Virus record (IMG/VR): IMGVR_UViG_3300045999_003076
Span: 1-31,065 of that record
Origin: a virus
Strand: one strand, 5' to 3'
DNA length: 31,065 nucleotides
The first letter of the stretch is position 1; each line of letters opens with the position of its first letter. The notes beneath the pieces were generated by a model. The model saw only the letters and a list, made by a program, of their open reading frames with translations, searched no databases and was not told where the DNA came from. Positions 3,568 to 7,645 of this stretch are shown here, one piece after another. Position numbers and translations under genes: made by a program.

Positions 3568-5928
3568 TTAAAACATTATATCGTTATCTTCTTCTTCTAT
3601 TACTTCTCCGCTTTTGATAATAAACCATTGCATACCGTTGGAAGTATCGCTTATGTATTCAAATCCCATAAATGAACAGTACTTTTGAACCCATAAATTA
3701 AACTTCTTACGAGTAAGCCATTTTTTAAAGTCTGGGTATTCCTCAACAAACTTGTCAAAAATTATCTTTTTATCTAGCCTTTCATTTTGTAATACAACTT
3801 CGGGATCTTTTATAAATTCGTAGAACTCCATCGAACTTTCAGCGATAAACTTCCGCATCTTAATATTTTTAGCGTTTTGCTTAACCAATCCATTATTTAA
3901 AAACAACTGTAAACAATGCACCATATAATTATCAAACTTCTGAAAATCGATTAGTTCCCAATCGTCGAACAACTGGCGTTTAAACTCATCCTCTGGCGTT
4001 AAATCCTTTCCGTAATATTGTGCTATTTCCAACTCGTATCTTCTTCTGTCGTGGCTATTTCCCTCGCCACGAATAGCGTAATTTGTAGATATAACTAACT
4101 TGGGGCTTTCGTGTACATTTAACTTAATTGCATCCTTATTTTTACGCTCTAAAGTCAATCCCTCTGTAACCAAACTAAACTTTTCCTCAAAATTAAAGTT
4201 CTTAATAACATCATCAAACACTAGTATCTTTGTATCAAGAGAAACGGTCTGATAAGGAAAAGACTTTTTACCATCAAATAACTTACCATCGATTATACTT
4301 GTTTTTCTTATTTGGCTAATACCTTGCACAAAAACTCCCTTTCCTGTTCCTCCCTCTGGGTTCTCTGAAATAACCTCGTCATTTAAAATTATAGCCTTAT
4401 TATTTGAACGGTTTTTATAAGTTGATATTAGGTAACCTATAACGCTCTCGGTTGGTAGTTCGGATTCGTTGGATATATTCTTAATAAAAGATTTGTAGTC
4501 ATTCTCAAATTCATCCAATACCACAAAATCACGATCCAAAATGTGATTTTCCCAAATGTAAAAATCAACATCGATGTAATCAATTAGCTTACACTCGTTT
4601 TTTGTTACTTCTAAGACGCCATTTTTATAAGCAATATAAGATTTGTGGCGGTCATCGTTTAACATCTTTAAATCGATTGATTCAAGCATCAAAAGGAAGT
4701 TTTCAGTAAATAAGTTTTGATATTTGGCGCAGTAGTTCCAGACTTCAAACTCTTTTTTATCTAATAGGTAATTAAGAACAAAGTCTTTGATAATTTCAAC
4801 AGATGTTATTCTTACCTTGTTTGAATTAATATAAACCCACGTCGGCTTTTGTGTATCGTTTGGGTAGTGTTTTTTATATCCGTTGCGCTCTAAAAAAAAC
4901 TTATACTTTAACGAGTCTATTGTTACCTTTTCTTTTCCGCTTTTATCGCAGGTAGTGAACCAAAAATCGTCGTGTTCTAATACTTCCTTTATTTCATCGA
5001 ATGTATCCTCCGTAATACCGTATTTCTTTATAACTGCTTCTTTACCTCTTTTTAAATCAACTCTAACCTTATCAATTTTTTGGTAATCTTCAAAGAATTT
5101 ACAATCAAAGTTTCTTTTTTTATATCCGCTTTTGATTGTGGTCTTTGCCTCTGCCTCTGAAAAATCTCCAATTACAACGTTATTAATAATATAGTTCTCA
5201 GCAGTTGTTTGGCTAACTCCATATTCGCAAAACATTCCAGCCAAATCAAAAATAAAGGCGTTTCTCTCTCCCTCTACAAAATCCTTTTTCCAATCAAAAG
5301 CCATTATCCTTTCGATTATCTTATCTTCATCTGTTATAGGTATTAAAGGCGTTTTTTCTGTAACGCTATAACCTACATCAATTAAGTTTGGTGCAAATTC
5401 AATAGCATCGTAATTAACAAATATATCTGGATCATATGATTCATAACAAACACGATCAACATTTGAACAGGACTTATCCCAATAATCAAAATCAAATTCC
5501 TTTTGAAAGGCAGTAAAATATTTGGGATGCGTTTCTTTTGTCGCTTCTGGTATTTTTACTACTCCTTTAATTCCTTTCCCGGATGGGGAAGTAAATAAAA
5601 GTAAAAAGTGAGGATTACGCTCAAGTATCGCTCGATGCTCAAGCATAACCTCATCGTTTTCGTATTTGTCAAAATCAACACACATAAGTCCGGAATGATT
5701 AACAAGGCTATTTCCGTTGCGCTCTGAAAATTCTCCAGCAAATAAAATGCAAGGCAATTTCTGTTTTATAAGGTCTGCATCTTTTTTATTGGTTGCATTT
5801 CTAACTTTGTCAATAATTGTAATTGACTTACCAACTTTTATACGTTGGATAATCTTTTCTAAATCTACAATGTAGGGTACATCTTTAGATTTTAAAAGGT
5901 CTTTAAAAACTGAAATTTTATATTCCAT
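3568..5928 (-). CDS. Primase-helicase (VirE_N/BT4734-like primase + SF3 helicase), 786 aa
   Basis: Main replication initiator. The N-terminal third matches the VirE_N/BT4734 domain of archaeo-eukaryotic-primase type: LMCVDFDKYE carries the metal-binding D85-x-D87, followed by LLFTSPSGKGIKGVVK and SNVDRVCYESYDPDIF. The C-terminal half is an SF3 helicase: Walker A NPEGGTGKG (about 523-531), Walker B KILVFDDV (about 567-574), motif C PKLVISTNY (about 609-617) and an arginine cluster HDRRRYE. It should unwind and prime phage DNA on its own. I chose the ATG at 5928; an upstream GTG at 5952 lies inside the leader hairpin and would add only eight residues. A promoter, repeat array and structured leader lie upstream (5945-6242). 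Confidence 0.92.
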   Translation of the reverse strand: MEYKISVFKDLLKSKDVPYIVDLEKIIQRIKVGKSITIIDKVRNATNKKDADLIKQKLPCILFAGEFSERNGNSLVNHSGLMCVDFDKYENDEVMLEHRAILERNPHFLLLFTSPSGKGIKGVVKIPEATKETHPKYFTAFQKEFDFDYWDKSCSNVDRVCYESYDPDIFVNYDAIEFAPNLIDVGYSVTEKTPLIPITDEDKIIERIMAFDWKKDFVEGERNAFIFDLAGMFCEYGVSQTTAENYIINNVVIGDFSEAEAKTTIKSGYKKRNFDCKFFEDYQKIDKVRVDLKRGKEAVIKKYGITEDTFDEIKEVLEHDDFWFTTCDKSGKEKVTIDSLKYKFFLERNGYKKHYPNDTQKPTWVYINSNKVRITSVEIIKDFVLNYLLDKKEFEVWNYCAKYQNLFTENFLLMLESIDLKMLNDDRHKSYIAYKNGVLEVTKNECKLIDYIDVDFYIWENHILDRDFVVLDEFENDYKSFIKNISNESELPTESVIGYLISTYKNRSNNKAIILNDEVISENPEGGTGKGVFVQGISQIRKTSIIDGKLFDGKKSFPYQTVSLDTKILVFDDVIKNFNFEEKFSLVTEGLTLERKNKDAIKLNVHESPKLVISTNYAIRGEGNSHDRRRYELEIAQYYGKDLTPEDEFKRQLFDDWELIDFQKFDNYMVHCLQLFLNNGLVKQNAKNIKMRKFIAESSMEFYEFIKDPEVVLQNERLDKKIIFDKFVEEYPDFKKWLTRKKFNLWVQKYCSFMGFEYISDTSNGMQWFIIKSGEVIEEEDNDIMF

Positions 5929-5944
5929 AAATACATAAAAGGTT

Positions 5945-6011
5945 AATGCCACTCAAACACGCTGGAAGTCGTGAAAGAGTGGCATTGATAATTTCTTATA
6001 ATAGCTTCCAG
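5945..6011 (-). promoter_or_regulatory. Structured leader of the primase-helicase mRNA (pseudoknot-type)
   Basis: In the leftward RNA, AATGCCACTC (5986-5977) pairs perfectly with GAGTGGCATT (5954-5945), a 10-bp stem with a 22-nt loop. Inside the loop, CTTCCAG (5968-5962) is the exact complement of CTGGAAG (6011-6005), which lies near the predicted transcript start. The two helices interleave, so they form a pseudoknot or kissing interaction, or two competing folds. The structure ends 16 nt before the ATG. There is no U-tract, so it is not an ordinary terminator. Confidence 0.6.
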
Positions 6012-6297: not shown

Positions 6298-7002
6298 TTA
6301 GAAGTCTAACCCATCATCATCATCTGCATCCTGCATATCATTAAAGTCATTTGCTATATCTCCATTTAATACAACCTCGATGTCGGCTTTGACTAGGTAT
6401 GTTTTAAGGTATGCTTCAAGTTGGTTGAATACTTCATCGGCTTGTGAGTTTTGCTCATCGTTAAGCGATCCATCAAATGTAAACTCTGGAACTGAAAATT
6501 TAACTGCTCCCTTTTTTCCATCTTTAGCGGTCTTAACGCTTACCCATTCATCACTAAGGCGTGAACGTGTCTTTTGTGTAAAATCTCCCCACGCTTGAAC
6601 TGCGGAACCTTTTAATTGTATGTTGGCAATGGTGCCATCTTCAAGCATTACATAAATCGATTTTGTATAATGTCCTCCAGCGGCAACAACTTTATCCTTA
6701 ATGTCTTTGTAATAACCTTTGGCAATTTCGTTACCCTTGAAAGGTTTAACTGTCATTACTTCTTTTGAAATGAATTTCACTTCGTTGGAATAAATGTTGC
6801 TTGATGAAGCATCATTCCAACCCTTAATAGTGTGCAATTCATCTAAGACTAAGAACTTAAAAGGCAAAGGTATTTCTACATTTTTCTGCGCTTCTTTGTC
6901 GTAGTAATTAAAACATTTGTCGTTTGATTTCCACTCGATAAATTTAGTGGCTGGATTTGTTTGTGGTTGTGCAAACGCTTGTCTGCGGTTTGAAGTACTC
7001 AT
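6298..7002 (-). CDS. Probable single-stranded DNA-binding protein, 234 aa
   Basis: The clearest feature is the very acidic C-terminal tail ending DADDDDGLDF, an arrangement typical of phage SSBs such as T7 gp2.5, where the acidic tail with a terminal aromatic residue recruits partners and gates DNA binding. The body has alternating beta stretches (PLPFKFLVLDELHTI, KSIYVMLEDGTIANIQLKG) compatible with an OB fold, and it lies in the replication block two genes from the start of its operon. No motif proves the fold, so the call rests on tail, size and context. The gene is preceded by a promoter-like TATATTTA and an H-type pseudoknot leader (7021-7052), and followed by a terminator. Confidence 0.65.
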   Translation of the reverse strand: MSTSNRRQAFAQPQTNPATKFIEWKSNDKCFNYYDKEAQKNVEIPLPFKFLVLDELHTIKGWNDASSSNIYSNEVKFISKEVMTVKPFKGNEIAKGYYKDIKDKVVAAGGHYTKSIYVMLEDGTIANIQLKGSAVQAWGDFTQKTRSRLSDEWVSVKTAKDGKKGAVKFSVPEFTFDGSLNDEQNSQADEVFNQLEAYLKTYLVKADIEVVLNGDIANDFNDMQDADDDDGLDF

Positions 7003-7020
7003 AATATTATATTTATTTAT

Positions 7021-7052
7021 GGTTCGGAGTTAAGATGCCCGAACCTTGCATC
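7021..7052 (-). promoter_or_regulatory. H-type pseudoknot in the leader of the SSB-like gene
   Basis: Leftward RNA: stem 1 GATGC (7052-7048) with GCATC (7038-7034); stem 2 GGTTCGG (7045-7039) with CCGAACC (7027-7021). The order is S1, 2-nt loop (AA), S2, no gap, S1', 6-nt loop (TTAACT), S2', the geometry of a classic H-type pseudoknot. It ends 18 nt before the ATG at 7002, in reach of the initiating ribosome. The pairings are exact; in vivo folding is inferred. Confidence 0.65.
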
Positions 7053-7068
7053 GGTTAATTATGAAATG

Positions 7069-7076
7069 TAAATATA
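7069..7076 (-). promoter_or_regulatory. Possible promoter before the SSB-like gene
   Basis: Leftward TATATTTA (7076-7069) matches TAnnTTTG except for the final base and lies in the 79-bp gap upstream of the pseudoknot. No convincing -33 element is visible, so the gene may rely mainly on the promoter at 7633-7626. Confidence 0.3.
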
Positions 7077-7081
7077 GTAAT

Positions 7082-7525: not shown

Positions 7526-7541
7526 AATGTTTAAGTAAAAA

Positions 7542-7616
7542 ATCCTAACTTAAATCCTACTGGTCAGAGTAGGCAAAATTAGGATCGATTATAGTTTTCT
7601 CTCAATCTCTGACCAG
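7542..7616 (-). promoter_or_regulatory. Structured leader of the 147-aa gene (pseudoknot or switch)
   Basis: Leftward RNA: CTGGTCAGAG (7616-7607) is the exact complement of CTCTGACCAG (7569-7560). That second segment is the loop of a hairpin with inner stem CCTA (7573-7570)/TAGG (7559-7556) and outer stem ATCCTAA (7585-7579)/TTAGGAT (7548-7542). The 10-bp helix and the hairpin compete for, or share, the loop, so this is a pseudoknot or a two-state switch. The structure ends 16 nt before the ATG, the same distance as in the primase leader. Confidence 0.6.
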
Positions 7617-7625
7617 ATTGTTTTG

Positions 7626-7633
7626 CAAATATA
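7626..7633 (-). promoter_or_regulatory. Host-type promoter for the 147-aa/SSB operon
   Basis: Leftward TATATTTG (7633-7626) is an exact -7 consensus. The predicted start lies near 7622, about 7 nt before the first strand of the leader structure. The -33 region is only T-rich, with no clear TTG. Confidence 0.55.
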
Positions 7634-7645
7634 AAAACTTTTTTT

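Follow-up and report, generated by a model that had tools for sequence, protein, structure and literature searches.

A widespread leader pseudoknot of an SSB-like phage gene as a probable autogenous translational operator

To our knowledge, the pseudoknot in the leader of phage T4 gene 32, which encodes the single-stranded-DNA-binding protein (SSB) gp32, is the textbook case of its kind and is known only from T4-type phages. The gene 32 operator consists of a 28-nucleotide (nt) 5'-terminal pseudoknot together with more than 40 nt of less structured RNA, in which UUAAA/UAAA repeats and the ribosome-binding site are found (PMC535899). The protein nucleates on the pseudoknot and then spreads (PMC535899, PMC3014915), and it needs the UUAAA/UAAA element (PMC535899). 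Here we describe an H-type pseudoknot in the leader of an SSB-like gene of a 31,065-base virus record (IMG/VR record IMGVR_UViG_3300045999_003076; the whole of this stretch is referred to as the window). We conclude that it probably acts as an autogenous translational operator in the manner of gene 32. No description of this SSB-leader pseudoknot was found in the literature searched.

The locus shares with gene 32 of T4, T2 and RB69 an H-type leader pseudoknot at a phage SSB-type gene and an A/U-rich stretch with UUAAA/UAAA motifs leading to the start region (PMC535899, PMC3014915); in both cases the fold is kept while the RNA sequence diverges, and some relatives (RB49 in the T4 group) do without the pseudoknot. 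It differs in that the pseudoknot ends 16-20 nt before the AUG, whereas the unstructured segment of RB69 spans -1 to -45, and in that it belongs to phages of Bacteroidota, precedes the gene for a protein without sequence similarity to gp32, and has an autoregulatory role that is predicted. Given the lack of gp32 similarity and the shorter distance to the AUG, the element is not a gp32 operator by homology; it has the same layout, and a like way of working is expected. The STAXI motif (RF01728; PMC2864571) likewise places pseudoknots near genes for DNA-handling proteins, SSB included, but occurs in Enterobacteriales as arrays of two to three tandem knots, frequently with UUCG loops, at several gene types, whereas here a single knot stands at a fixed distance from one gene. 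The Escherichia coli S15 (rpsO) operator is a leader pseudoknot bound by its own product for autogenous translational control (PMC3014915), as would be the case here; since S15 is a host ribosomal protein with another RNA and another mode, this parallel is a general one only.

Structure and covariation of the leader pseudoknot

The element occupies positions 7052-7021 on the minus strand (32 nt) and comprises stems of 5 and 7 base pairs with loops of 2, 0 and 6 nt. Read 5' to 3', the 5' arm of stem 1 (GATGC, 7048-7052) is followed by loop 1 (AA, 7046-7047), the 5' arm of stem 2 (GGTTCGG, 7039-7045), the 3' arm of stem 1 (GCATC, 7034-7038) with zero nt between the stems, loop 3 (TTAACT, 7028-7033) and the 3' arm of stem 2 (CCGAACC, 7021-7027). 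From there an 18-nt A/U-only spacer with UAAA repeats (ATAAATAAATATAATATT, 7003-7020, minus strand), the presumed spreading and ribosome-binding region, leads to the ATG at 7002. An initial sequence-only reading had given the same interleaved pairings, loop lengths and distance to the start codon, all of which were confirmed; the strand, which it did not name, is the minus strand. A folding program limited to nested (non-pseudoknot) structures recovered stem 2 only (z = -2.4). The knot is the sole copy in the window: a model trained on this gene's leaders scored it at 66 bits versus 14 for the next match, and a search for a second knot in the window with this leader-trained model found none.

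Compensatory changes in homologous leaders had been set beforehand as the test of the pairings, and the pairings proved to be kept by a wide margin. In a gapless alignment of 62 leaders (the near group), 98.5% of cells were paired and both sides had changed at 10 of the 12 pairs, giving 134 double-change cells (19 in shuffles) and a covariation score of 0.61 (0.17 in shuffles). Stem 1 was paired in 62/62 leaders with double changes at all five pairs, and stem 2 in 97.5% of cells with double changes at 5/7 pairs. As a control, the pairing partners in this group were slid by 1-3 columns, upon which pairing fell to 31-55%. In a distant group of 19 leaders, 100% of cells were paired (covariation score 0.63 vs 0.18), with differing stem sequences such as GCCG/CGGC, GCCC/GGGC, GCTG/CAGC and ACCC/GGGT. 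Because the aligned rows were leaders in which the scan had found the knot, with stem-1 mismatches disallowed, these counts lean toward structure; little was left out by this selection, however, because the rate of knots among distinct leaders is high (see below).

On a quick protein tree of 158 members, the sequence type changed at least 40 times for stem 1 and at least 80 times for stem 2, with 24 and 57 types, respectively. Loop 1 is AA or nearly so in close and distant leaders alike, and loop 3 is A/U-rich and 3-7 nt long among relatives. Because both stems were rewritten many times with the fold kept, the knot is probably a real switch by which the protein would limit its own production.

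G-U pairs were frequent in both aligned groups, which fits selection on RNA rather than DNA. A feature acting at the DNA level (an operator, a recombination site or an origin hairpin) would suit the replication region, where the stems could form in single-stranded DNA. We regard it as extremely improbable in view of the G-U pairs, of a distance to the AUG held near 16-20 nt across leaders, and of a knot that persists whether or not a promoter-like box is present and also when the upstream gene differs.

The preQ1-I and SAM-II riboswitches are similar to this knot in size and topology, and translational riboswitches typically lie beside the start codon, as this knot does. Over the whole window, zero Rfam families exceeded the gathering threshold, and the knot itself had no match at E values up to 5; a riboswitch or other known RNA family was rejected as a candidate on these zero matches. 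With neither threshold, gathering or relaxed, yielding a match, with few invariant loop bases, and with an SSB gene not being a metabolic target, a small-molecule riboswitch of this compact H-type class is very unlikely.

Distribution among homologs and link to one gene

Scans of viral contigs for homologs of the encoded protein (P0001), using P0001 itself, an alignment and more distant members, yielded more than 200 loci. The knot forms in 118/136 distinct leaders of the SSB-like gene. Among homologs at least 60% identical it was present in 83 of 85 distinct leaders (13 of them with one stem-2 mismatch), the two failures being L152, which matches in part and has two mismatches in stem 2, and L067, from a clade in which genes abut. 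At 40-60% identity the knot was found in 35/48 leaders, and all 13 failures fall within that clade (L061-L077), a knotless Bacteroidota group in which the SSB-like gene lies 4-5 nt behind its upstream neighbour; such direct abutment is a plausible alternative form of control. In an 80% non-redundant set, 39/47 leaders held a mismatch-free knot, compared with 2.1% of dinucleotide shuffles at like spacing. The leaders of other genes on the same contigs (563 after dropping L081, a copy of the window) gave 16 knots (3%), mostly weak A/U matches. Knots were also seen by eye in L334, L348 and L328, the last with CAAGG/CCTTG and GCGGATG/CATCCGC.

Bacterial genome assemblies contained four homolog loci, from Flavobacterium, Lacinutrix and Bacteroidetes metagenome-assembled genomes (MAGs); homologs occurred in 1/399 genomes from the genus of the Flavobacterium MAG and in 3/397 from the family of the Lacinutrix MAG. 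One of these, the knot-bearing homolog L328 (genome G554, contig C1 near 1.54 Mb), lies deep inside a long bacterial contig, a position that suggests an integrated prophage and, with it, a possible laboratory source. In the collection of isolated-phage records, homologs were confined to Mycobacterium phages (~30-35% identity); the knot was present in 0/3 of the mycobacteriophage leaders examined, and no isolated phage carrying it was found in this collection.

To look at the association from the side of the RNA, 2.9 million viral contigs were scanned with a pattern in which the AAGG start, loop 3 and CCATAAA were the sole fixed parts and most positions of the stems were left free. The scan returned 80 matches, 59 of which form both stems, and every one of these (59/59) precedes a homolog. 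The 21 others lack both the knot and a homolog, and no knot was found before other genes. The gene upstream varies, and in L165 and L232 a homolog of P0002, the upstream gene of the window, lies downstream instead, with the knot remaining at the SSB-like gene. The knot is linked one-to-one to the SSB-like gene.

This association bears on two further explanations. The knot could be an operator for another RNA-binding protein, encoded by the phage or its host and coordinating replication genes, and a fold that is conserved while its stem sequences vary would suit any protein that reads shape. However, a shared regulator normally has several targets and the knot is found on one gene only, with one copy in the window, making this explanation improbable. 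The knot could also be a constitutive translation or mRNA-stability element that leaves the start region accessible or shields the 5' end, securing, with no feedback, the high SSB level that phage replication requires. Consistent with this, it ends 18 nt before the AUG, at the edge of an initiating ribosome; a promoter-like box in many leaders puts it near the 5' end; and beyond the AA its loops have little fixed sequence. A general enhancer would be expected at other highly expressed phage genes, however, whereas the pattern scan met the knot only at the SSB-like gene and other leaders on the same contigs lack it, and we consider such an element rather unlikely.

The spacer between knot and start codon is 16-20 nt long, A/U-only and rich in UAAA. 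The last 16 nt before the start have a GC content of 4% (18% in other leaders), and TAAA occurs 1.70 times per last 20 nt (0.70 in other leaders). On the other side of the knot, the stretch separating it from the upstream gene (7053-7081, minus strand) holds a putative promoter-like box, TATATTTA, roughly 15-20 nt before stem 1. The box reads TATATTTG in several relatives, and among homologs with 60% identity or more, 67 leaders have a loose version of it; it is present upstream in many leaders and missing in others. Where it stands just upstream, the knot may lie near the 5' end of the mRNA, and box-free leaders probably rely on read-through transcription.

The SSB-like protein and its neighbourhood

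The gene behind the knot (6298-7002, minus strand) encodes a probable SSB of 234 amino acids, P0001, which matches only the unannotated PHROG phrog_6706. The acidic C-terminus with an aromatic end to which the sequence-only reading had pointed is present (DADDDDGLDF) and is a property of the family: the last residue is aromatic in 148/160 distinct members, and at least five of the last 15 residues are acidic in 154/160. The L228 protein ends in DDDIPF, as does E. coli SSB. In the window the SSB-like gene stands in a replication context, preceding a gene for a primase/helicase-like protein with PriCT_1 and BT4734-like N-terminal domains (3568-5952, minus strand) and a helicase gene; in three Mycobacterium phages the homolog precedes a DNA primase/polymerase gene. 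From the C-terminal tail and gene neighbourhood, the P0001 family is probably an SSB family. Its unannotated homologs Gaia gp93, Lucky2013 gp129 and Thibault gp120 (L166-L168), all ending in F, are probably the SSBs of these Mycobacterium phages, without the knot. The protein had been proposed to be unrelated to gp32; a search for gp32 similarity agreed with this, finding no gp32 family among family members (set A4).

AlphaFold models of the protein were confident (pLDDT 83 and 91), but a comparison looking for an OB fold like that of a solved SSB gave no significant PDB match. Predicted viral structures match the P0001 family widely, most of them unnamed and one called SSB, and the matches to predicted phage SSBs are weak. 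Among solved structures, some fold similarity was seen only with the phiC31 recombination directionality factor (RDF; 9teh, TM ~0.3, E 0.01-0.09), and a predicted phage RDF was also among the structure matches; judging from these models, RDF and the SSB-like family may share a fold. The proteins of L021, L051 and L059 differ in their central segment, which contains an insertion (around VKTYHKDFGGKNTTT), and are otherwise near-identical to other members, a pattern that suggests domain-level recombination within the SSB-like gene.

The upstream gene P0002 (7082-7525, minus strand; 147 amino acids) abuts the SSB gene (4-5 nt) in the knotless clade. Its own leader (7536-7645, minus strand) is a second structured leader with a promoter-like TATATTTG. 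Here arm A (CTGGTCAGAG, 7616-7607) pairs with A' (CTCTGACCAG, 7569-7560) and arm B (ATCCTAATTT, 7585-7576) with B' (AAGTTAGGAT, 7551-7542), all on the minus strand, and a T-run and then the ATG follow. A/A' and B/B' interleave and so make a pseudoknot, which adjoins a terminator-like hairpin in an arrangement resembling an attenuator. The layout is kept in at least three unrelated sequence versions (the window type, the CCGCCAAG type of L004, L011, L051, L366 and L369, and L022), and the element is not in Rfam. In L368 and L375 it precedes, in place of P0002, a 161-amino-acid open reading frame starting MEIWKPVKDYPN, a putative NUMOD/HNH homing endonuclease.

The pseudoknot as a probable operator

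In the mechanism that we propose for the leader pseudoknot, SSB present in excess of the available single-stranded DNA would bind the folded knot, spread cooperatively over the A/U-only spacer and cover the start region, so that its own translation would be shut off. The sequence-only reading had suggested such gp32-style autoregulation. The conserved fold, the one-to-one link with the gene and the UAAA-repeat spacer as in T4 speak for it, while self-repression is itself something we infer, as are the identity of the protein as an SSB and its role as the ligand.

Several observations weigh against this interpretation. The SSB identity is indirect because P0001 has no Pfam match at E values up to 1, no annotated match in PHROGs, and no significant SSB match in PDB by sequence or by Foldseek. 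A/U-rich leaders are common in Bacteroidota, and the spacer of 16-20 nt is far shorter than the more than 40 nt of T4. Furthermore, the mycobacteriophage homologs and one Bacteroidota clade do without the knot.

On balance, we lean towards the view that a pseudoknot operator that is read by its shape and nucleates cooperative self-repression arose independently in a phage SSB family without detectable relationship to gp32, the RNA having been rewritten dozens of times. The element would thus be a new and widespread RNA family that is convergent with the gene 32 principle.

The knot occurs in well over a hundred Bacteroidota phages, adding a new RNA family and providing a functional handle on phrog_6706. 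If our reading is true, the occurrence of the gene 32 layout in another SSB family, apparently an unrelated one, would suggest a general solution, in which a small RNA fold beside the start codon tells the SSB that single-stranded DNA is saturated. We note that the more than 100 natural stem variants give direct experimental access to a problem of long standing, namely how an SSB distinguishes its own mRNA from other single strands.
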